From the IMG/VR virus record IMGVR_UViG_3300040751_002834, positions 1 through 21,049 of that record: a stretch of DNA of 21,049 nt. One strand, given 5' to 3'. Below are positions 1 to 18,627 of this stretch, in pieces; the stretch's first letter is position 1, and every line of letters starts with the position of its first letter. Under the pieces are notes generated by a model. That model made no database searches. It was given only the letters and a program-made list of their open reading frames with translations, and was not told the DNA's origin. Made by a program: the position numbers and the translations under genes. The DNA comes from a virus.

Positions 1-648
1 AAGACCTGGCATTAACGAAACTGGATCAAGCTCTTTGAAACCGATTATTCGATCTTGTGATTTGTTATAAATGATCTCAAATGCGATATATCCATCGATC
101 AACCACTTTCTAAAGTAAGACCAAGCGGAAAGATCATTATTGAATCCGAAATACTGATAGATTCGTTTAAAGTTGGTATCTAAAGATATTTTAATTGCGG
201 CTAAAGTTTCCGGATCTAACGATTCATCGTCAAAAGTTACCGGAGCCATGCAATAATTTTTATCGTCATAAACTACACATTCATCACAAAGAGTATCAAG
301 AATATCTTCGATTTCATCCTGTATAGCAAATTTTCTAAGATCTTCTCGTTTCTTTGGATAAGACTTATCAAAAATAGAAATTGATTTTCTTAGATTAATA
401 TCAGTCATTGACAGATTAGCAAAAAGTGCATAATCGTCGTATTCTCCTCCAGCTGCATTTCTAGGATCTAACCTCCATCCAAATTGATCTTCATTAACAC
501 CAATTGCTCGTGAATTTGTTAGAACCATATCGTCGTACATCATCCCAAAAGATGATAACGATTTCAAAGCTTTACGTATAGGATTTCTTGATGAAGCCGG
601 AGATTTTCCAGTATAAACATCATCTCTATTAACGAATCCTTGTGCCAT
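1..648 (-). CDS. 20: Portal vertex protein, T4 gp20-like, N-terminal 216 residues (gene runs off the left edge)
   Basis: The frame is open from the ATG at 648 to the first base, giving 216 codons. The portal is the dodecameric ring at the head vertex through which DNA is packaged and to which the neck attaches. The visible part starts MAQGFVNRDD and ends with a stretch containing YFRKWLIDGYIAFEII and then GFKELDPVSLMPG. This matches the gp20-type pattern in which a K-W-x-x-D-G segment is followed by an L-D-P-x-x-(L/I)-x-P segment. Family members have roughly 500 to 560 residues, so about 40 percent is present. An ATATATAG box lies 21 nt upstream of the start. The gene is last in the order head completion protein, 254-residue protein, portal. 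The assignment rests on recalled family patterns. Confidence 0.8.
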   Translation of the reverse strand, partial: MAQGFVNRDDVYTGKSPASSRNPIRKALKSLSSFGMMYDDMVLTNSRAIGVNEDQFGWRLDPRNAAGGEYDDYALFANLSMTDINLRKSISIFDKSYPKKREDLRKFAIQDEIEDILDTLCDECVVYDDKNYCMAPVTFDDESLDPETLAAIKISLDTNFKRIYQYFGFNNDLSAWSYFRKWLIDGYIAFEIIYNKSQDRIIGFKELDPVSLMPGL

Positions 649-669
649 AGTTTAGTTTATTATTATGTT

Positions 670-677
670 CTATATAT
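670..677 (-). promoter_or_regulatory. Candidate late promoter box ATATATAG upstream of the portal gene
   Basis: The minus strand reads ATATATAG here, ending 21 nt before the portal ATG. The same 8 bases occur at similar distance before three other virion genes in the window. T4 late promoters carry TATAAATA in the -10 position, read by gp55, and a gp55-like gene is present here. The sequence is AT-rich, so chance is not excluded. Confidence 0.4.
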
Positions 678-694
678 TTGATTCTGAATCTTAC

Positions 695-1459
695 TTATTT
701 TATGAACTTATGCTTACCTTGTTTCTCAGCAAGTTCAATTTTAGCTTTGTAATATTGAGGATTCTCGTTCCATTTAATAACATAATCTTCATATGCTTTG
801 TATATGTCAAATATACTCGTATTTCCTTCGAGTTGAGGATATTGTGTTGGTTGGTCTATCTTTAAGATCTTATCCCAATCATCATAACATACACAGTATA
901 TTGGATCTTGGATTTGTTGAGGTAGATAATTACGGATAGCAAAAGAAAATCCCATAGGATCTAATGCTGTACGGATAGCAAAAAGGTCAAGATTATCAAT
1001 TGATGCTTGTTCAGATGCTTTTTGAGGTTTTTTCTTGATTGCGTCTTTATACATCCCAGAATATCCTTTACGTAGCTTATTCACTATCATATCTCGATAT
1101 TTAGGCGGATACCAGCTTATATTAATACCTTTATAAAGGAGAGATCCATTAGGTGAGATATATCTCCCTAACATTAACATTATCGGCATCTTATCCCAAT
1201 AAGCTAATCTGTCTGCGGTTATTGCATCATATTGAAAGATGTAAATTTTACCAGGATCTAGATCCGTAGATTTTTTTAGCTTTTCTACTCGTGTGGATTT
1301 CTCGTCCTTCATTTCATTGAGCAGCCATTTATAAGGATTTTTGAGTTCCTTTTCTGGATCACTTTGATTTTGGTCTTCTTCAAAACCACCTTGAGCCTTT
1401 AAAGAAAGAATCTCTAGAAAGGCTTTAAAAACATCAAAGAAACTTCTATTTTTACTCAT
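695..1459 (-). CDS. Virion-associated protein of T4-like phages, 254 aa, exact role unresolved
   Basis: The ATG at 1459 overlaps the stop of the head completion gene by one base (TAATG), so the two are probably translationally coupled. Residues 67 to 130 carry a recognisable pattern: DPGKIYIFQYDA, then LAYWDKMPIMLML, then LYKGINISWYPPKYRD. I associate the arrangement Y-W-D-x-x-P followed by Y-x-P-P-K-x-R with a conserved protein of T4-like phages whose annotation I cannot recall with certainty. In T4, gene 4 (50) is flanked by gene 2 (DNA end protector) and gene 53 (baseplate wedge), so one of those roles is possible by position. The N-terminal 60 residues are charged and the C-terminal 30 form a likely helix. 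No signal peptide or membrane segment is visible. Confidence 0.6.
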   Translation of the reverse strand: MSKNRSFFDVFKAFLEILSLKAQGGFEEDQNQSDPEKELKNPYKWLLNEMKDEKSTRVEKLKKSTDLDPGKIYIFQYDAITADRLAYWDKMPIMLMLGRYISPNGSLLYKGINISWYPPKYRDMIVNKLRKGYSGMYKDAIKKKPQKASEQASIDNLDLFAIRTALDPMGFSFAIRNYLPQQIQDPIYCVCYDDWDKILKIDQPTQYPQLEGNTSIFDIYKAYEDYVIKWNENPQYYKAKIELAEKQGKHKFIK

Positions 1460-1941
1460 TATTTATTGCTCATTTTGAAAAAATCTTCTGTGATTACTCG
1501 GAATTCGCAGTCTTTCATGGTTTTTGCTAGTTTGGTTGCGGCTTCCTTTTTTGCAACATTCGTAACCCAAGCTTCATAGGCCCATTTATAAGAAGCCATG
1601 GCTTTTTTGGTTTTTCTTTTTGGGAGATTAGGTTTTTTGAATTGAGATTTTGGTTTTATCTCAATTATCCAAGTCTTTCCTGTGTCAGTTCCTATAATGA
1701 AATCCGGAAAGTAACTGTGATATTTGTTATCAAGTGGATTGAAGTATTTAATACACAAAGACTCCGATGACCACCATAGGATCGCCGGAGTCCTTTCACA
1801 ATATAAACAAAATTTCTTTTCCCAAGAAGATCGATAAATTATAGGACCTGAACCTTTATACTTTTTAGCCTCGTTTAGCGGAAAGTAACCTTGCGTAAAG
1901 GGAGATTTTTTGGATGGTCTATTATTTTTTATCGACTTCAT
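1459..1941 (-). CDS. 4: Head completion protein, T4 gp4 (gp50)-like, nuclease fold
   Basis: The product has 160 residues, close to the T4 gp4 length. It carries the family signature YRSSWEKKF at residues 36 to 44, then ILWWSSESLCIKY, then YFPDFII at 77 to 83 and WIIEIKPKSQ at 91 to 100. E41, P79-D80 and E94-x-K96 together make a PD-(D/E)xK or TnsA-like nuclease pattern, which is typical of this family. In T4 the protein acts late, when the filled head is closed and made ready for tail joining. The Lys/Arg-rich stretch at residues 101 to 116 could touch DNA. The start at 1941 lies 8 nt after the stop of the upstream 107-residue gene. The gene is coupled to the 254-residue gene downstream. Confidence 0.85.
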   Translation of the reverse strand: MKSIKNNRPSKKSPFTQGYFPLNEAKKYKGSGPIIYRSSWEKKFCLYCERTPAILWWSSESLCIKYFNPLDNKYHSYFPDFIIGTDTGKTWIIEIKPKSQFKKPNLPKRKTKKAMASYKWAYEAWVTNVAKKEAATKLAKTMKDCEFRVITEDFFKMSNK

Positions 1942-1949
1942 AGAGTGTA

Positions 1950-2273
1950 TTACATAGCAGATCTCTTAATAGCTCCGCCAGCTAATACATCATCCATTTC
2001 AGCATCTTCCCAGCGAACGTCTTTTTCCATGTTCTCTGTATTAAAGATATGATAGTGATCAGTTACTCCTTGATAAACCATTGAAGGAACTTCTTCACCA
2101 TCAACAACCACGATATATTCTTTTCCTGGAATTAAATCCTCTTTAGCAGTAATTGTATCTACAACAACATCTGCATCGGATGCCTCATCTGGTTTGAAGT
2201 TTGGTGCGATATCTTCGTCAACTTTGTTATAATTTTCGTTAACGAATTCGTCAAATGATAAAAGCTTTTTCAT
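1950..2273 (-). CDS. Putative internal head protein with capsid-targeting peptide and a shared 58-residue module
   Basis: The product has 107 residues. The N-terminus, MKKLLSFDEFVNE, matches the F-x-[ED]-F-[IV]-N-E peptide shared with five neighbouring proteins. T4 internal proteins (for example IPIII) use such a peptide to enter the prohead core, and the gp21 protease then cuts after its Glu. Cleavage here would be after E13. Residues 14 to 44 form an acidic linker. Residues 45 to 102 (EDLIPGKEYIVV, then MVYQGVTDHYHIFN, then DDVLAGGAI) are clearly related to the C-terminal module of the 602-residue protein at 5907 to 7715. The role of this module is unknown to me. A candidate late promoter lies 28 nt upstream. 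No membrane segment is visible. Confidence 0.75.
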   Translation of the reverse strand: MKKLLSFDEFVNENYNKVDEDIAPNFKPDEASDADVVVDTITAKEDLIPGKEYIVVVDGEEVPSMVYQGVTDHYHIFNTENMEKDVRWEDAEMDDVLAGGAIKRSAM

Positions 2274-2301
2274 TGTCTCTTTTTCTTTTTTGTTATTTTA
2301 T

Positions 2302-2309
2302 CTATATAT
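2302..2309 (-). promoter_or_regulatory. Candidate late promoter box ATATATAG upstream of the 107-residue head protein gene
   Basis: The minus strand reads AGATATATAGATAAAAT around this box, which ends 28 nt before the ATG at 2273. It sits in the short gap after the stop of the 306-residue gene. It matches the box before the portal gene and the boxes at 8288 and 9316. Confidence 0.4.
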
Positions 2310-2310
2310 C

Positions 2311-3231
2311 TTAATCAACATAAACAGGATGAGATCCTGCAGATGCTGAATCGGTTGGATCCCAGCCTTTCATTCCATTAAATGATCTCATGTCTGTAGT
2401 GGACCATGTTGATGTGTAAGTTCCGGTTCCAACGGTTCTTTTTGGATCGTTATTTAAAGATGTTTGATCAGGATCTATTGCAACTGAAGGATCTCTTGTA
2501 ATTTCTGCAGTTTGTTCTAGTCCGTTTTCTTCAAGTTTTTCTCCACCTTCATCGGTTAGAGGTCTATCTCTCAACATTGCATTAACTTCAACAAAGAATT
2601 TTTCTTCCTCAGGTGATAGCTTAGATTTGACGTATTTGGCAATTCCTCTTAAAACCGTCTTACGCTTTTTATTATTTTCTATTTTGAACTTATGTTCACG
2701 TTTTCCTCTCGTAAAACCATCCATATAAGGATATTGATCTAGCTCTCTTAACATCCTTTCTAGTTTGGCATCTCCATTAAACTTATCAGCAATCTTTGCA
2801 GATTCTGATTTTAATTGTTCCATTTTAGTTTTATCTCTAAATCCTTTGATTTTGTCAATTATGGATTTTCTCCAATGTGAGAAGATTTTTCCGGCAAGAA
2901 TAATACCACCTCCAGCAACAATTGTTGCCATTTCAGCACCGGTTTTAATTACATCTGCGGCTAAAATTCCTTTTGTTACCTCCCACCATTCAAGACCTTC
3001 ATTAAGTGACTCATCAGCAGAAATCATGTATTGAGATTCGCAAATATGAATAGTTCCTTTGCTATCTCGAAAAGCCAACTTACCTTTGATAAGTTCTTTA
3101 GATATTATAACTCCGGAATAACCGTCCAATGTAACAATAGGCGATCCTACTTGAAGATCACATCCATCATAACTGACATTGGGAGTAGATTCGTTTAGTT
3201 GATATTCTTCGTACGAAAATAGATTTTCCAT
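2311..3231 (-). CDS. Putative internal head protein with targeting peptide, internal cleavage site and a membrane-like segment
   Basis: I place the start at 3231, giving 306 residues, because it begins MENLFSYEEYQLNES, a variant of the shared targeting peptide, and lies one base after the stop of the upstream gene. A longer frame to 3339 exists, but its extra residues are very basic and are the out-of-frame image of the acidic C-terminus of the upstream protein. Residues 74 to 79 are ESLNEG, a second likely prohead-protease junction (cut after E78). Residues about 87 to 115 (GILAADV, then MATIVAGGGIILAGKIF) form a hydrophobic stretch long enough to cross or insert into a membrane. A basic, helical region follows at 118 to 220, and a Ser/Thr/Asp-rich low-complexity tail ends the protein. 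A head protein with a hydrophobic segment could take part in DNA ejection; that is inference. Confidence 0.7.
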   Translation of the reverse strand: MENLFSYEEYQLNESTPNVSYDGCDLQVGSPIVTLDGYSGVIISKELIKGKLAFRDSKGTIHICESQYMISADESLNEGLEWWEVTKGILAADVIKTGAEMATIVAGGGIILAGKIFSHWRKSIIDKIKGFRDKTKMEQLKSESAKIADKFNGDAKLERMLRELDQYPYMDGFTRGKREHKFKIENNKKRKTVLRGIAKYVKSKLSPEEEKFFVEVNAMLRDRPLTDEGGEKLEENGLEQTAEITRDPSVAIDPDQTSLNNDPKRTVGTGTYTSTWSTTDMRSFNGMKGWDPTDSASAGSHPVYVD

Positions 3232-3232
3232 A

Positions 3233-4549
3233 TTATTCTTCTTCGGTTGTTGTTGTTTCTTCATCTTCTGCTTCTTCAGGGGTTTCGTCAGCCAATTCCT
3301 TACCTTTCTTTTCGGCATCTTCAACTGCTTCTTTATCAACAGTTACAGGTATAGTGATAACCTCAGGACCTTGATTAGTAAAGACTTTATTTCTTTCAAA
3401 ATCATATACGAAAACGACCTCACCATCTTTTTTGACGATATAAGTCTTGGTCATTCCATCTTCTTGAAATTCATAACCATCCTTTTTTCCTACATTAGAT
3501 TTCCAAAGTTCCCACCAAGCAGGATCAACGGCATAAGCATTTTTAAGATCTCCAATTTTCGGTTTTTCTTCAGGTTTAGAATCTGTCTTTTCTTCTGCTT
3601 CTGTTATAGATTCATTAACTTCAACAAATCCTTGTGATACTAAAATTCTTTCGGCATCTTTTAGATCTTTTGCATCTATATTTTTATAACTAAATTCTAC
3701 ACGATATTTTTTACCGTCTTTTGTGATGTATGCCGATTCTTTCTTATCATTCTTGTATTCAGCAACCTTTTCTTTTGCTTCATTAACTGATTCAGATAAA
3801 AACTTATAGATTAATTTACCATCCTCGGTTTGAGTTTCTCTTGTATTAAGGCCACCAACATTTTGAAGTGCTAGATCAATAAGTAGCTTTTCGGAAGGTG
3901 CACCCATATTGTCCCAACGTTTATCCGTCTTATGAATTTTACCAAGCTTTACTTCACCATCATAAACATATATAGATTGAAGTTTGTCTCCGTCTTTAAC
4001 AGCGATTGCATTACCTTCACGTTTTGAAAAGTAAATATCACCGTCTTTTCCAGGTTTAGTAAATTGAGTAACTTTTGCACCTCTAGCTTCATCTATCGAT
4101 TCGGTAAGACCTAAATGATCAGCCATTTCCTTGTTAAATTCTTCAAGTTCTGCATCATTCAATTTACGGTAAACTTTTTCTCTAAGATTTTTAATTAGCT
4201 TTCTAGCTTCATCATATCCTTTACCTTCATTAACTTCAGATTCGTTAACTCGAGCTTTAAGAAATGAGTAAACTTGTTCAACATCTTCTTTGGCTGTTGC
4301 CATATGATCTACTGCCCAAGCATGTCCATCTCTAAGTAGCTCATCAACTTTGTCTGGGTTCATTTTTAGAATCTCCTCGATTTGATCTTTTATGTTGATC
4401 AAATTTTGAAAAAACATATATTCATCTACGTCTTCTCCTACTGGATTGATGGTAAATGTATGTGGTTCTATAACTCTACCGTCTTGAGAATATTGTTGTG
4501 GAAAATTCTCATTAATAAAGTCTTTGAATTTTTTAAGAGATAAACTCAT
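3233..4549 (-). CDS. Putative internal head polyprotein, targeting peptide plus four internal cleavage junctions
   Basis: The product has 438 residues. The N-terminus, MSLSLKKFKDFINE, carries the shared targeting peptide (cut expected after E14). Four internal segments repeat one pattern: NESEVNEG at 102-109, TESIDEA at 149-155, SESVNEA at 252-258 and NESITEA at 312-318. All fit the (I/L)-x-E type of T4 prohead protease site, with Val allowed. Cutting there would leave five pieces of roughly 94, 46, 103, 60 and 121 residues. The third and fourth pieces are Lys/Asp-rich and look like small beta domains (DGDKLQSIYVYDGEVKLGKI; TKDGKKYRVEFSY). The last piece holds WWELWKSN and ends in an acidic Glu/Thr tail. 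I do not recognise any domain. The stop is one base from the next start, so the cluster is tightly packed. Confidence 0.75.
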   Translation of the reverse strand: MSLSLKKFKDFINENFPQQYSQDGRVIEPHTFTINPVGEDVDEYMFFQNLINIKDQIEEILKMNPDKVDELLRDGHAWAVDHMATAKEDVEQVYSFLKARVNESEVNEGKGYDEARKLIKNLREKVYRKLNDAELEEFNKEMADHLGLTESIDEARGAKVTQFTKPGKDGDIYFSKREGNAIAVKDGDKLQSIYVYDGEVKLGKIHKTDKRWDNMGAPSEKLLIDLALQNVGGLNTRETQTEDGKLIYKFLSESVNEAKEKVAEYKNDKKESAYITKDGKKYRVEFSYKNIDAKDLKDAERILVSQGFVEVNESITEAEEKTDSKPEEKPKIGDLKNAYAVDPAWWELWKSNVGKKDGYEFQEDGMTKTYIVKKDGEVVFVYDFERNKVFTNQGPEVITIPVTVDKEAVEDAEKKGKELADETPEEAEDEETTTTEEE

Positions 4550-4572
4550 TATCCGTTGTTTCTTTTATTTAT

Positions 4573-4935
4573 CTAGATTGAATAGATTCCGTCTGAATCT
4601 GGATTCGATCCTCCTTCTAATGAAAGAGTTCCTTTGTATTTTCCAGGATGTAATTTGTTCCAACCTTTAGCATATCCGTTTTTAGCGATTTGTGTGTAAT
4701 AAGAGAATGCGTTTGTGGTTTTTTCGGGTTTGAAACGATCCCAATACTTGAATAGATCTAGAAGTGCAAATTGAATGCAATCTTCTTTATCTTGTTGTGT
4801 TGTGTAAGTTAATTTATTGTTTGCTCTTTCCGCAATTAAGATGAGCATGTCTTGAGCTTTCTTTGTTAATTTCTTTTGTTCAATACAATAAGAAATCTCG
4901 GCATAAAGCTCTTTATTGTCTACATAAGCTGCCAT
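4573..4935 (-). CDS. 55: Late-transcription sigma factor, T4 gp55-like
   Basis: I use the ATG at 4935 (120 residues, starting MAAYVDNKELYAEI). It leaves a 43-nt leader, whereas the longer frame to 5028 overlaps the upstream gene and adds an unrelated N-terminus. gp55 is a very small sigma that directs host RNA polymerase to late promoters with help from the clamp gp45. The visible pattern is LILIAERANNKL, then QDKEDCIQFALLDLFKYWDRFKPEKTTNAFSYYTQIAKNG (quoted in part), which is the reduced sigma region 2 of T4-type gp55: acidic helix, then F-x-P-x-K-(S/T)-x-N-x-F-x-Y-(F/Y)-T-Q-I. No region 4 is present, as expected. It is unusual to find it inside a cluster of head proteins. The gp45-like clamp in the same window fits the mechanism. 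Confidence 0.8.
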   Translation of the reverse strand: MAAYVDNKELYAEISYCIEQKKLTKKAQDMLILIAERANNKLTYTTQQDKEDCIQFALLDLFKYWDRFKPEKTTNAFSYYTQIAKNGYAKGWNKLHPGKYKGTLSLEGGSNPDSDGIYSI

Positions 4936-4978
4936 GTTTATTATTTTCTTCTTTTTATGAAATTTATCGGAAAAAGGA

Positions 4979-5461
4979 TCAGATCTTAACTGTAAGAAGA
5001 CCTCTAGGAATTGACATAGTTTTACCATCAGGTCTAATCACTTCTACCTCTTCGTCATCTCCTTTACTTGAATAATCAAGAGCATCTGCTTGAACTAATT
5101 GACCTTTACGAAGATCTTTATAATCTTGTTTAAGTCTTACACCGGATGTAATATCATCTTTTTCAATATCTTCATGTAAAATGGATTCTAACATTTCCTC
5201 TTGCTCAGGAAAATTTAGACTTCTTCCTTTTGCAACTTGGATTCCGGATGAACCTCTTAAAGATACTTGAATGTTGTATTTTTCTCCGTTTTCATCTTCA
5301 ACCTCGAATTGTTTGAAGGCATTAGCTCTATTTCCAAATCCTACAATTGTGTAAGTATGTCGATCTGTTTTAAGAGTACTACCGATAGAAAGTTTGTTAG
5401 CATCTTTAGGTGATAGCATTCCTTCGTTAATGAATTCGTGAAAGTGTTTAAATGTTTTCAT
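4979..5461 (-). CDS. Putative internal head protein with capsid-targeting peptide
   Basis: The product has 160 residues and starts MKTFKHFHEFINEG, the closest match in the window to the T4 IPIII leader as I remember it (MKTYQEFIAE). Cleavage would be after E13. A second possible junction is ESILHED at residues 92 to 98. It would split the protein into two small domains, residues 14 to about 97 (IGSTLKTDRHTYTIVGFG, then VEDENGEKYNIQVSL) and 98 to 160 (LVQADALDYSS, then VEVIRPDGKTMSIPRGLL). Both look beta-rich and resemble small SH3-like folds, which is only an impression. A strong terminator lies just upstream, so this gene probably has its own start signal or depends on read-through. Function is unknown beyond probable packaging. 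Confidence 0.75.
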   Translation of the reverse strand: MKTFKHFHEFINEGMLSPKDANKLSIGSTLKTDRHTYTIVGFGNRANAFKQFEVEDENGEKYNIQVSLRGSSGIQVAKGRSLNFPEQEEMLESILHEDIEKDDITSGVRLKQDYKDLRKGQLVQADALDYSSKGDDEEVEVIRPDGKTMSIPRGLLTVKI

Positions 5462-5479
5462 ATTCGATCTTTTGCTGAA

Positions 5480-5503
5480 AAAAGAGGAGTTTCCTCCTCT
5501 TTT
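5480..5503 (-). terminator. Rho-independent terminator with GAAA tetraloop
   Basis: The two arms AAAAGAGGAG and CTCCTCTTTT form a perfect 10-bp stem. On the minus strand the loop is GAAA, a stable GNRA tetraloop, and the 3' arm continues into six T residues. It lies 20 nt after the stop of the 118-residue gene and 18 nt before the start of the 160-residue gene. It therefore ends the upstream head-protein transcript. Confidence 0.85.
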
Positions 5504-5523
5504 CTATTTTCATTTAAGTTATT

Positions 5524-5880
5524 TTATTTCTTTACAAAAAATGACAACCAACCACCAGAATAAGTGCTCACTGCATTAAGTTTTTTACTATAGGCAACGT
5601 TTGACATAAAATAATCTTCATATTCAGGAGCTGATGCATCCTTGAAATTACCACCTTTACTCCATTCTTTGTCGAGTTTTTTGTATTCTTTTGAATCTCC
5701 ATCTTCGTCAGGGTCATATACAACGATATCCGAAGGTTTAGCGCCTAAGATTTTTGCAATTTCTAAGTAACCGTCTTTTCCATCAGGATCAGATTGCATT
5801 ATCTTATCTAGTGAAAGGCCTACTTCTTCGTTAAGTTTACCTTCGTTGATGAATTCTGAAAATGTTTGTAAATTTTTCAT
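5524..5880 (-). CDS. Putative internal head protein with capsid-targeting peptide, 118 aa
   Basis: The protein starts MKNLQTFSEFINEG, a clean copy of the shared targeting and cleavage peptide (cut expected after E13). The next residues, KLNEEVG, offer a possible second site after E18. The remainder is a small acidic soluble domain. It contains ILGAKPSDIVVYDPDEDGDS around residues 44 to 63, with an Asp-rich stretch that could bind a metal, and ends in an aromatic, basic tail, GGWLSFFVKK. I do not recognise the family. It follows the 602-residue gene by 26 nt and is followed by a strong terminator, so it is the last gene of the upstream head transcript. The leader AATAAACAAAAGATG has no Shine-Dalgarno box. 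Confidence 0.7.
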   Translation of the reverse strand: MKNLQTFSEFINEGKLNEEVGLSLDKIMQSDPDGKDGYLEIAKILGAKPSDIVVYDPDEDGDSKEYKKLDKEWSKGGNFKDASAPEYEDYFMSNVAYSKKLNAVSTYSGGWLSFFVKK

Positions 5881-5906
5881 CTTTTGTTTATTTTTATTTG
5901 ATTAAA

Positions 5907-7715
5907 TTATTCAATTTCTCCAGCATCGATAGCGGCGATAACTTCTTCGTCTGTCATTTCGATAGGTGTTGCTTCTTCAGATCCTGAATCATTATTCCAT
6001 ATATGAACTCCATCAGTAGATCCTTGGTAGATATAACCTCCAACTCCTTTGATTTTGTTTTCTTTACCTGGAACTAGATCGTTAACTGATGCGATTGCTT
6101 CGTTTACCGATTCATCAACTTTGCTTAGTTCAGTTTTAAGATTTTTCAAAGAATCTTCAAGATACTTAACATAATCTCTCATTTTCTTTTGTGGATCAAA
6201 TGGGTGCATTGTATTAGGATGCTTGGATTTGTATTGTCTTAGTTTAGCTTCAACGTTTGCTATTCTCTCTTCTAAGTCATCTTTTTTTGATTCGTCTAGA
6301 TCATTGTTTTTGTATTCTCCAGTCAGCTTAGACATTTCTTTTTCTTGCTCAGCCAATTTGCTTTCTAAAAGTTCTTTAGCTTTTGTGATATGTGTAGATT
6401 CTCCATTAACTTTAACAAAAGTATTTAGATCTTCGATTTTTTCAAGAATAAACTTGATTCGACTTTCAACCTTAGCGATTTCTTTTTCTTTTCTTTCAGC
6501 ATCAGCTTTTTCGTTTTCTAAAAGATGATTAACTGAATCGGTGATATCGTAATTCATGAAGTCCTTAACAATTTTAACTGCATCTTCAGCTGATTCAGCA
6601 AGAACAAGAGAATTTTCTTTCATTCCTTTGTTAATTCGTTGAATGTAGATATTTTCGTTTACCGTAAATACGTTTACTGTAACTCCTTCGAAAAGAGATG
6701 AAGTAACTCGGTAACCAAAATCAAGTTCTTTAATTCCTTCACCTTCGGAAATTGCATGTTGAATGAAAGACATTTTAGAAGTCTCTCCCATTTTAACGAA
6801 ACCTCCAGCCAATAAGTGATTAATAACTTCAGATGATTCAACAACTTTATTATTCAATTTAACAACCTTATCATCGCCATATTCGATATCGATAATCGAG
6901 TTTGTGTTAGGATAAATTCGAATTCCTTTGTTAGAGAATTTAGCATTTTCTGAGATATTAACAAGAGACTTGAAGTTATCGGATACTGTAAAAGCAGATT
7001 CCTCAATTGATTCTCCGTTAAGTTCTAGTAGCTTTCCTGAAGAGAAAAATACGAATCGAGATTCATCAATAGCTTCAACCGGAGAATAAATTCTAGAAAC
7101 TTGGAAATTAGGATTTTGTCCATTTACTTCTCCATGTTTTTTACTAGCATATTCATAAAGTCTTTTCACTAAAGGAATCCATTTTTGATTCTCAAGTAAA
7201 TTGATAATTTCTTCTGTTGGATTGCTTGATTCTGAACACTCTTTCAATTTAGCAAGAGCATCTTTGTAAAATTTCTTTTCTCGACTCATTTCTAAATCAA
7301 ACATAACTTGTTCAATAAGAATATAAGTCTCGTTTCGCTTCAAGTAATCTTTTGTTTCGTTGATAAAGTTACCAACAGATTTCATCCAAGCATAAGCTCC
7401 TAGCTCTTTAACTAAAGACTCAAGTAACTCAACTCTTTTGATTACAAATTGATCAGCCATAGTTGTAGATCCTTCGTTCAAAGAAGCATCTTTAACCATA
7501 TTTCTAGCTTTGTTTTGCTCTACTCCAAGACCTTTAAGCTCATCGTAAATATCGTTAGTAGTTGACTTACCTTCAGAAATTTCTAAAGAGGCAAACTTAC
7601 CATAATATCTTTCGATAATCATTCTTGAAGTATTAACTCGGTCAAGTCCTTCAAGAAGATTAGTAAGCTTCTCTTTCAGAATAGCCGAATCTAAGGTTTT
7701 CTTAAGATGTGACAT
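5907..7715 (-). CDS. Large putative prohead core or internal protein with a detachable C-terminal module
   Basis: The product has 602 residues and no N-terminal targeting peptide, but three internal segments match the cleavage pattern: SLNEG at 78-82, FINET at 117-121 and ESVNEA at 535-540. Residues 1 to 180 are mostly helical. Residues about 205 to 380 are beta-rich (SRFVFFSSGKLLELNG; IRIYPNTNSIIDIEYGDDKVV; VNVFTVNENIYIQRI). Residues 395 to 535 are a highly charged coiled coil (EKADAERKEKEIAKVESRI and further heptads). Residues 545 to 602 carry the module shared with the 107-residue protein (NDLVPGKE, then YIYQGSTDGVHIWN, then IAAIDAGEIE). This module starts six residues after E539, so prohead cleavage would free it. 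Size and coiled coil fit a core or scaffold role, but it does not resemble T4 gp22 as I recall it. Confidence 0.7.
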   Translation of the reverse strand: MSHLKKTLDSAILKEKLTNLLEGLDRVNTSRMIIERYYGKFASLEISEGKSTTNDIYDELKGLGVEQNKARNMVKDASLNEGSTTMADQFVIKRVELLESLVKELGAYAWMKSVGNFINETKDYLKRNETYILIEQVMFDLEMSREKKFYKDALAKLKECSESSNPTEEIINLLENQKWIPLVKRLYEYASKKHGEVNGQNPNFQVSRIYSPVEAIDESRFVFFSSGKLLELNGESIEESAFTVSDNFKSLVNISENAKFSNKGIRIYPNTNSIIDIEYGDDKVVKLNNKVVESSEVINHLLAGGFVKMGETSKMSFIQHAISEGEGIKELDFGYRVTSSLFEGVTVNVFTVNENIYIQRINKGMKENSLVLAESAEDAVKIVKDFMNYDITDSVNHLLENEKADAERKEKEIAKVESRIKFILEKIEDLNTFVKVNGESTHITKAKELLESKLAEQEKEMSKLTGEYKNNDLDESKKDDLEERIANVEAKLRQYKSKHPNTMHPFDPQKKMRDYVKYLEDSLKNLKTELSKVDESVNEAIASVNDLVPGKENKIKGVGGYIYQGSTDGVHIWNNDSGSEEATPIEMTDEEVIAAIDAGEIE

Positions 7716-7736
7716 TTTTTGTATATTTGTTTTTGT

Positions 7737-8270
7737 TTATTTTTCTTTCAATTCATTCTCATAAGATTCCATTAGAATTTTCTTGATCTTTTCTAATTTT
7801 TCAGAATCTTTCATTGCAGATTTAAGAGCAGCCAATTTAGCCGAATCTTCGTCATCCTTTTTCATGGAATCTTCATCATCTTTTTTATCTTCCATGTCTT
7901 CTTCATCACCTTTCTTTAACTTATCTAAAGCATCTTCTACATCCGGATCAGCCTTAGCTTTTTCTGGCTCAATTCCTTTTGCCAAATCATCTGGATCAGC
8001 TTTAACTAAATCATCGATCTCATCGTCTTCCTCAAATAAACCTTCTTGAATTGCGTCAAAATCTATAGCAGATTCGAATACTTGAGCAAGAACTTTTCTT
8101 TTTCTTTCTTCATCAATACCTAATTGAGTCATATATTGATAAATCATTGAAGGTGTTTTACCTTCTTCAGCAAGCTTCTTTATTAAAGGATAAAGAGAAC
8201 CTTGTCCATAATAAGAGTATTGTCCAACCAACATCTCATTGACAAAGTCTTTGTGTGATTTTAATTCCAT
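7737..8270 (-). CDS. Acidic prohead core protein candidate with capsid-targeting peptide
   Basis: The product has 177 residues. It begins MELKSHKDFVNE, matching the shared peptide (cut after E12). Residues 13 to 60 contain YSYYGQGSLYPLIKKL and look like a compact helical domain. A second likely junction is AIQEG at 74-78. Residues 79 to 146 are extremely rich in Asp, Glu and Lys (DKKDDEDSMKKDDEDS and similar), and the C-terminus is a basic-acidic amphipathic helix. This acidic composition is reminiscent of T4 gp67/gp68 and of the core peptides left in the mature head, but I see no clear sequence match. It is the first of the head cluster after the gp15-like gene. A candidate late promoter lies 23 nt upstream. 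Confidence 0.7.
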   Translation of the reverse strand: MELKSHKDFVNEMLVGQYSYYGQGSLYPLIKKLAEEGKTPSMIYQYMTQLGIDEERKRKVLAQVFESAIDFDAIQEGLFEEDDEIDDLVKADPDDLAKGIEPEKAKADPDVEDALDKLKKGDEEDMEDKKDDEDSMKKDDEDSAKLAALKSAMKDSEKLEKIKKILMESYENELKEK

Positions 8271-15629: not shown

Positions 15630-16829
15630 TTACCAAAGTGCACCTACGGTATAAGCAAGACTAGGATTGATAGGTGGAAGTCCGGCTGGAATTATTATTC
15701 GATTTAGTGGATCAATAATTGTTGATTGAAATTGTCTTTCATAATCTATTTTAGGTGCAATTTCAATTGGATATTCGCCTGGTTTGTAACCGAAATTATT
15801 GTTCATTCCATCGTCTACCGAATGATACCATTTGATTTTATCACCACCTTGAATTAGCTGATATTTTTGCTTTAATCGAGAATCTTGATTAAGGAGGTAA
15901 TTGTGGTATGCTCCTGCTCGAACATGTATTGGACATCCTTTATTGAGTTCAAATCCGTCAGTATCGTTAAGTACAAATTTCTTATAATTCGAAATTCCTC
16001 GAGACATGGATATCTTTTCGATATTCGACATTTTGAATTCTCGTTTGATGTCTTTAATAAGACCAACTAATTCGGGATTGTTTTCGACGGTAAGTTTTTT
16101 CTTGGAGAAGATAAATTTAACCGCTTCAATTAATTTTTCTCGGCAAAATACTGGTGTACTTGATTGAATAATTTCAAGTCCTGTGGTTTTGATATATGAG
16201 AGATTATCGTAATCCTTTCCATCTTTCCAGATGATGTTTTGTACATATTTCTTTTTTGCAACCCAAACGGCGTTTTCCGCAATAGTTTCAAGTTCAAAAT
16301 CGAGGTAATTATCGACTCCAAAGGATTTGGCATAATCATCAAGAACTTTTTTGATAAGTGGAGCTAATCGAAAATTGTTTAGTCGAATAACAAATTCTTT
16401 AACACCTCCTTGCCAATTAACTGCTTCCATACATTCTTCAAAGATGAGATATCCTGAATCAGTATCGGTATATTTCCAAACGGTTCCTTTGATTTTAGGA
16501 ACTTCAACATCTTCGGGAACATCAAGATATTCGAGTAATTTTCGATCTCGATGGAATACTTCTTTGAAATACTTATCTACCATTTTTTCGGTAAATTTGA
16601 TAGCATCTTGTCCTTGAAGCGTAACCGTTTCAGCAATTGCTATGTTATAAAAGTGAAAGTATTCGTTTGCGAAGGCTCCGTATATACTGTTAATGGCTAA
16701 TTTGATTGCCTGTTCATGAGCCGAACATCTTGCGGAATAGGTTTTAAGATCTTCTAGTTCTTCAACCGAAAAATTCGAAATATCAAGGTTTTCAATTTCT
16801 TCGTATTTTAAACTGTCGTAATCAATCAT
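15630..16829 (-). CDS. 43B: DNA polymerase family B, C-terminal half only (T4 gp43-like split polymerase)
   Basis: The product has 399 residues, against about 900 for T4 gp43. It holds motif B, KLAINSIYG at residues 43-51, and motif C, TDTDS at 121-125 with both metal-binding Asp residues. The KKKYVQN and KTTGLEIIQSSTP segments belong to the palm and thumb, and the hydrophobic end SLAYTVGALW resembles the clamp-binding tail of gp43. The exonuclease domain and motif A (D-x-x-S-L-Y-P) are missing. Only 17 nt separate the start from the clamp gene, so the N-terminal half is not next to it. The break falls in the fingers, before motif B. Everything visible is intact, so this looks like a working split enzyme and not a relic. 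From memory, Aeromonas T4-like phages have gp43 split in the same general region. The 40 residues before motif B show no intein end (no H-N before a C/S/T). Confidence 0.9.
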   Translation of the reverse strand: MIDYDSLKYEEIENLDISNFSVEELEDLKTYSARCSAHEQAIKLAINSIYGAFANEYFHFYNIAIAETVTLQGQDAIKFTEKMVDKYFKEVFHRDRKLLEYLDVPEDVEVPKIKGTVWKYTDTDSGYLIFEECMEAVNWQGGVKEFVIRLNNFRLAPLIKKVLDDYAKSFGVDNYLDFELETIAENAVWVAKKKYVQNIIWKDGKDYDNLSYIKTTGLEIIQSSTPVFCREKLIEAVKFIFSKKKLTVENNPELVGLIKDIKREFKMSNIEKISMSRGISNYKKFVLNDTDGFELNKGCPIHVRAGAYHNYLLNQDSRLKQKYQLIQGGDKIKWYHSVDDGMNNNFGYKPGEYPIEIAPKIDYERQFQSTIIDPLNRIIIPAGLPPINPSLAYTVGALW

Positions 16830-18099: not shown

Positions 18100-18627
18100 T
18101 TATTTTTTGTAATACCAGATCTTATGGCTAACATCATTTATAGAACCTTCAATAACGAATGACTTTAATTCGTCAGGTGTGTAGTCGTTATTAAGTTCAT
18201 CTTGTGGCGTCGGCTTTAGGAATATTGCATCCCACTCTGGGTGATCCATAAACCATCCGCTGGAGAACTGCCCGAATATTTCACATTGATAAAGATCCCA
18301 ATCGAATGGAGCAGCTTCCCCGTAAGAGCTAGTAACTATTAAGAAGTCTGAGCTAGTAACTATTTGATCGCCGTCTAAGTCAAAGATATTTAAAGATTGC
18401 TGCCCGTAGACAGAGTTAAAAGCTAGCAATGTTTGAACATTGAAGTAGTGAGCTGTATCACCACCAATAACAGACCGGTAGATATTGTACCCGTCTGGAG
18501 ACAAGTGGTTCTCAATTTGAGGTACCATATTGGTACTTCTATCGTTTACTCCATCTGGAAGTATCATTTTTGTGCATGAACACACAAAAAACATAGTTAT
18601 TAATGTGATTGTGATTGTTGTTTTCAT
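18100..18627 (-). CDS. Predicted lipoprotein with an EF-hand/dockerin-like calcium loop, 175 aa
   Basis: The N-terminus MKTTITITLITMFFVCSC is a lipoprotein signal peptide with lipobox VCSC, so the mature chain should begin at a lipid-modified Cys near residue 18. Residues about 81-98 read NIFDLDGDQIVTSSDFLI, a D-x-D-G-D loop with a further Asp at position 12, as in dockerin and EF-hand calcium sites common in Bacteroidota surface proteins. The segment IVTSS is repeated eight residues later and is identical at DNA level over 15 nt. The rest is aromatic and acidic (SSGWFMDHPEWDAIFLK). The gene looks richer in G and C than its neighbours and has noncoding sequence on both sides, so it may be an acquired cargo gene. 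Surface lipoproteins of phages such as T5 block superinfection. That role, or a host-derived one, is possible but not shown. Confidence 0.8.
   Translation of the reverse strand: MKTTITITLITMFFVCSCTKMILPDGVNDRSTNMVPQIENHLSPDGYNIYRSVIGGDTAHYFNVQTLLAFNSVYGQQSLNIFDLDGDQIVTSSDFLIVTSSYGEAAPFDWDLYQCEIFGQFSSGWFMDHPEWDAIFLKPTPQDELNNDYTPDELKSFVIEGSINDVSHKIWYYKK
18326..18364. repeat. Two exact 15-nt direct repeats inside the lipoprotein gene
   Basis: GAGCTAGTAACTATT occurs at 18326-18340 and again at 18350-18364, an offset of 24 nt (8 codons). It encodes the doubled IVTSS peptide next to the calcium loop. Identity at all 15 bases, including third codon positions, suggests a recent duplication. Confidence 0.9.

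Follow-up and report, generated by a model that had tools for sequence, protein, structure and literature searches.

A putative T4-type capsid targeting tag on about a tenth of the genes of uncultured giant phages

Six clustered proteins encoded in a 21,049-nucleotide stretch of viral DNA (IMG/VR record IMGVR_UViG_3300040751_002834, positions 1 to 21,049; hereafter, the window) begin with a common short peptide, and we consider it highly probable that this peptide is a T4-type capsid targeting sequence borne by a hugely expanded arsenal of internal proteins that would be packaged, cleaved, and injected. Judging from gene sequences, about 10% of the genes in this phage and its relatives, about 30 to 50 proteins, appear to carry the tag. 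We lean, by a modest margin over doubt, to the broader view that an uncultured clade of T4-like giant phages uses a portable head-entry tag to ship these proteins, including enzymes and polyproteins cut inside the head, and that this amounts to effector delivery by the virion on a scale not described so far among T4-like phages. A T4-type tag system is itself known; the novelty here consists in its scale, the clade that has it, a tag that differs slightly, and the occurrence of polyproteins. No earlier description of such an expansion was found in the open-access papers searched, with subscription journals lying outside the search.

The motif common to the six N-termini is [FYH]-x-[ED]-[FY]-(x)-[ILV]-N-E, with histidine at the first aromatic position in one carrier. 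The genes have ATG starts at 2273, 3231, 4549, 5461, 5880, and 8270, all on the minus strand, and the Glu that ends the tag is residue 13, 14, 14, 13, 13, and 12, respectively. The cluster had been singled out in the original prediction, and all six carriers were found at these genes: when the first 60 residues of the 22 window proteins were shuffled 20,000 times, the mean was 0.0014 carriers per shuffle and the maximum ever was 1, compared with 6 of the 22 proteins in the window. The motif had no match beyond residue 20 of the window proteins. In order along the minus strand (a slash marks the predicted cut), the tag MELKSHKDFVNE/M (8235..8270) opens an acidic protein of 177 aa (7737..8270) and is kept in all homologues found; MKNLQTFSEFINE/G (5842..5880) opens an internal-protein candidate of 118 aa (5524..5880) and has a second LNE right behind it; MKTFKHFHEFINE/G (5423..5461) opens a candidate of 160 aa (4979..5461); and MSLSLKKFKDFINE/N (4508..4549) opens the putative polyprotein 3233-4549 considered below. 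A variant with one inserted residue, MENLFSYEEYQLNE/S (3190..3231), opens a candidate of 306 aa (2311..3231), which has a second site, LNE78/G, and certain homologues of which keep the standard tag, e.g. MKNLKTYEEFLNE. Finally, MKKLLSFDEFVNE (2235..2273) opens a candidate of 107 aa (1950..2273) with a body domain at residues ~32-107.

The N-termini of T4 ipII and ipIII both read MKTYQEFIAEA, and the IPIII peptide given in the original prediction (MKTYQEFIAE) was right. Genetic analysis of T4 IPIII has assigned residues 4 and 7 to capsid targeting and residues 8 and 10 to cleavage (PMC9026906), and the conserved tag columns (aromatic, aromatic, aliphatic, and Glu) correspond to these four residues. 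The short N-terminal peptides of the T4 internal proteins IPI, IPII, and IPIII and of the proteins described here align in register at two aromatics, an aliphatic residue, and Glu (compare MKTYQEFIAE with MKxxxTFxEFxNE). The two tags differ in length (typically 13 residues here, 10 in T4), in the usual Asn at P2 here, and at P3, where these phages often have valine and the T4 motif is given as L/I-x-E. A profile made from these phages placed ipIII and ipII at the top of the 274 T4 ORFs; T4 ipI, which has a variant signal, was missed by it. In the reciprocal direction, phrog_2667 ("internal head protein"), whose match to the T4 internal proteins covers residues 1-14 only, matched tagged carriers in the relatives G002 and G004, though weakly (E-values from 1.6e-5 to 0.19). 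The third-highest score in T4, after ipII and ipIII, belonged to gp61.1 (NC_000866, 18966-19130), a hypothetical protein of 54 aa that begins MKTFKEFIKED and is possibly an unrecognised capsid-targeted T4 protein.

The tag is much more widespread than the window suggests. A profile search of the motif, which the original prediction had proposed, detected N-terminal carriers in three relatives: 48 in the one of 294 kb, 29 in the one of 254 kb, and 28 in the one of 246 kb; with the one-residue-insertion variants included, 51 of 436, 36 of 342, and 32 of 319 genes are tagged. The suggestion that this phage loads a large set of proteins is thus borne out as regards the number of carriers, which is well above six at 32-51 per relative genome. 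At a score of at least 14, the profile retrieved 95 real ORFs (window included) compared with 3 of 3,261 internal-Met segments. As many as 10 tagged genes follow one another without a break in G004, and as many as 8 in G005 (permutation maximum, 5); the longest run in G002, 5, is not above the permutation maximum of 6. In an alignment of 107 carriers, the tag alone (MKxxxTFxEFxNE) is conserved, with E13 invariant and F10 at 90% or more, and in 97 of 110 carriers the Glu of the tag is one of residues 12-14. As had been predicted, the bodies behind the tag are mostly unrelated: grouping the 110 tagged proteins by body gives 73 families, of which 54 are singletons, and the small domain that protein 1950-2273 has in common with the C-terminus of its untagged 602-aa neighbour is an instance of sharing. 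A strict DNA pattern of the tag found 30 stretches in IMG/VR, and the reversed-pattern control was nearly empty. An export signal was ruled out because the tag lacks a hydrophobic core.

The genes around the cluster include head genes. The recognised genes of the window are on the minus strand, in the order nrdB, nrdA, the C-terminal half of gp43, uvsX, gp41 helicase, gp47, gp46, and a gp15-like tail protein gene, after which come the tagged cluster (8270 to 1950), a gp4-type head completion/closure protein (1459..1941; phrog_218, E=3e-39), a gp2-type DNA end protector (695..1459; phrog_429, E=1e-21), and the start of the gp20 portal gene (1..650). A gp55-type late sigma factor (4573..4935, minus strand; phrog_234, E=4e-11; start at an internal ATG) lies amid the tagged genes. 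Contig L001 is 99.88% identical to window positions 1-6007, extends past the window edge, and by its sequence is the continuation of the window's own phage. In L001, the full portal gene is followed by a gene (L001 7019-8899) for a 626-aa protein in which an S77 prohead protease domain (PF03420, E=1.5e-10) is fused to a scaffold-like domain; homologues are present in G002, G004, and G005, and two more tagged proteins, VKNLPTFNDFLNE (GTG start) and MKNFLTFEQFITES, are encoded downstream of the fusion. The original prediction had pointed past the portal gene as the place to look for a prohead protease, and the S77 gene lies directly there; because L001 matches the window so closely, the objection that this phage lacks such a protease fails.

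The S77 domain, encoded in a frame of 608-643 aa, is present in 10 of 11 longer relatives (the exception is a 23-kb fragment) and in 12 of 23 contigs searched after DNA-pattern matches, many of the 23 being fragments. It is 30% identical to T4 gp21 and keeps the GEL-x-HP and SSR motifs. At the end of its catalytic domain is RVNE/S, where self-release of the protease from the scaffold would occur. Sites of the type [ILV][NSTA]E[SAGN] occur at 19.8 per 1000 aa in the scaffold domain compared with 1.4 in other ORFs (26 scaffold-domain sites observed; shuffle maximum, 8). The frequency of the triplet [ILV]NE falls from 10.0 per 1000 residues in the 20 residues behind the tag to 2.7 further along the bodies and 1.4 elsewhere, a 7-fold excess after the tag over other ORFs, and control triplets showed much less or no excess. 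T4 likewise has an S77 domain (gp21) and an adjoining scaffold with many [ILV]xE sites (gp22); the two are separate in T4, whereas here protease and scaffold form a single protein of 614-637 aa. A fusion of this type has been annotated before, in Tenacibaculum phage PTm1, and the arrangement of protease and scaffold in one gene is known from herpesvirus protease-scaffold genes.

Short peptides rich in aromatic and acidic residues can dock to many partners, and the tag could in principle be a docking signal unconnected with the capsid, directing its carriers to host RNA polymerase, a replication compartment, or a degradation pathway, with the likeness to T4 being convergent. We regard this as very improbable, since the profile matches with T4 ipII and ipIII are reciprocal and the same terminal signature is found again within the scaffold and where the protease domain itself ends. 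Overall, the T4 residue pattern, the reciprocal profile matches, the S77 protease, and the site signature of the scaffold support the reading of the peptide as a capsid-targeting and cleavage signal. In this scheme, each tagged protein would attach to the core of the prohead scaffold through the aromatic pair ([FY]-x-x-F) and so be taken in while the shell is still open. Later, cleavage behind [ILV]-N-E by the S77 protease, which is made as the N-terminal portion of the scaffold protein, would take off the tag, set the protease free from the scaffold, and break the scaffold down; the freed bodies would remain with the DNA in the head and be ejected into the host. Certain bodies would be made as polyproteins and cut at doubled sites.

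The best candidate for such a polyprotein is the 438-aa product of the tagged gene at 3233..4549 (minus strand). It has four doubled sites (E103/E108, E150/E154, E253/E257, and E313/E317), the most of any ORF examined; doubled sites are found in 16 of 109 tagged ORFs compared with 6 of 1055 others. Its domains I (~31-101) and IV (~331-400) correspond to stand-alone genes in relatives, mostly tagged. An AlphaFold model, although poor overall (pLDDT 59), is confident for domains at about 45-100 and 331-422, and its confidence is low where three of the four linkers lie. With these features, the 438-aa protein looks like a protease-cut polyprotein, and the count of six tagged proteins given in the original prediction holds for the genes, all six of which are real, but has to be qualified for this product.

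The neighbouring gene at 5907..7715 (minus strand) encodes an untagged protein of 602 aa with ten [ILV]xE[SAGN] sites, and in its homologues such sites are more abundant than in anything but the scaffold. The C-terminal domain of the 602-aa protein, behind the doubled site VDES/VNE539/A, is a separate tagged protein elsewhere: the domain at residues ~32-107 of protein 1950-2273 recurs here and in tagged proteins of relatives. A search of PDB folds with the 438-aa and 602-aa models returned nothing at E<=0.001. Foldseek detects structural similarity between the 602-aa protein and proteins of PTm1, pT24, and marine phages (E down to 9e-16), so that it is probably a conserved virion part. It is also a probable head or core component.

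This protein, with sites along its full length, and the location of the conserved carriers next to head genes are also what would be expected if the tag marked parts of the prohead core only, which would be cut up and mostly lost, so that few would reach the host; T4 gp22, gp67, and gp68 are processed in such a manner. We judge this account unlikely, although well ahead of the docking explanation above. The 54 singletons among the 73 body families fit accessory cargo better than proteins that build the head, at most one additional narrow-type site is present in four of the six window carriers, and the carriers in relatives include several enzymes.

Most bodies match no recognisable family; the few that do are RimK-like ATP-grasp ligases, a cytidylyltransferase-like enzyme, a glycosyltransferase, and KTSC domains. 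Outside matches of the cytidylyltransferase mostly begin at query residues 13-22, i.e. after the tag. Because the outside homologues of enzyme bodies begin there, the tag appears to have been added to unrelated genes. The same observation, together with the 73 body families, argues against the carriers being diverged paralogues that keep the N-terminus alone; despite the small domains common to certain bodies, we give this possibility hardly any weight, marginally less than the docking alternative. The tagged RimK-like ligase, annotated in PHROGs as ribosomal S6 glutaminyl transferase, has a putative retropepsin/zinc-protease-like C-terminus (G005 87756-89231, G002 238020-239516, and G004 109121-110626) and is possibly an injected protein-modifying enzyme. 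PADLOC returned only weak single matches. An NleE-like match was dropped because it was weak, below the family cut-off, and crossed stop codons in the genome search. T4 Ip1, Ip2, and Ip3 are injected inhibitors that block GmrSD restriction enzymes (PMC12373910), and because of this analogy, counter-defence is the leading guess for many of the tagged bodies, which may thus have counter-defence or take-over roles.

With capsid targeting as the preferred reading, the set of tagged proteins can be compared with known systems. The T4 internal proteins similarly have unrelated bodies, an S77 protease, and a scaffold with the same kind of sites. T4 has three internal proteins, and at least ten are reported from T-even phages (PMC12373910), compared with 32-51 per genome here; further, the protease-scaffold fusion and the polyproteins set these phages apart from the T4 internal-protein system. 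The ejection (inner body) proteins of phiKZ and SPN3US are also found in jumbo phages and comprise many prohead-protease-processed head proteins that are loaded and ejected, as the genes suggest for the phages described here. However, processing in SPN3US takes place at A-x-E sites, most propeptides are 111-254 residues long, and nine substrates are known (PMC10052503), with no short common tag described, whereas the tags here end in [ILV]-N-E after about 13 residues. Every defining T4 capsid-targeting feature that sequence can reveal is present: an extreme N-terminal position, aromatics at residues 4 and 7, a cleavage motif in which valine extends L/I-x-E, an S77 protease in the genome, a scaffold with the same sites, and an independent, if weak, match to the T4 internal-head-protein model.

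If the tag does mark 32-51 proteins, the whole injected set could be read from sequence, giving a catalogue of the injected and mostly unknown proteins of uncultured giant phages and a source of candidates in which to look for anti-defence and host take-over functions. The peptides are natural variants of a tag already used for cargo loading into T4 heads, and the polyprotein would offer a route to package several domains at once.

The S77 protease does not always come with the tag, which was sought and not found in the S77-bearing relatives PTm1 and immuto, nor, by DNA pattern, in Lak-A1; the DNA pattern was also not found in S-SSM7 and phiKZ. A diverged tag, MKYIxEYEEFLNE, occurs on about 20 proteins of LR756500.1, a metagenomic phage of 462 kb (e.g. 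323012-323395 and 313382-316693). Membership in the bS21-encoding Bacteroidetes phages (PMC9723584) was considered and rejected, as no bS21 was found in any of 7 records. In the intergenic regions of G002, G004, and G005, untagged genes often have an upstream TTGTTAATAACTTT...TATATTTG signal resembling Bacteroidota promoters, which hints at Bacteroidota as the host phylum. A freshwater member of that phylum is the probable host. A host-type promoter was found within 150 nt of 0 of 90 tagged genes and of 2-8% of others, a weak contrast. The tagged genes follow closely on their neighbours, with a median gap of 9 nt, and an upstream gap of at least 60 nt occurs in only 7, too few for a late-promoter test.

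Two further features of the window lie apart from the tagged cluster. The DNA polymerase ORF (15630-16829) matches the C-terminal part of gp43 only (about 497-838 of 856), and the gene directly upstream is a different gene, so that the polymerase is probably split. Between nrdA and a clamp-like ORF, positions 18100-18627 contain a lipoprotein-like ORF with a signal peptide ending FVCSC and a dockerin-like DLDGDQIVTSSD stretch.
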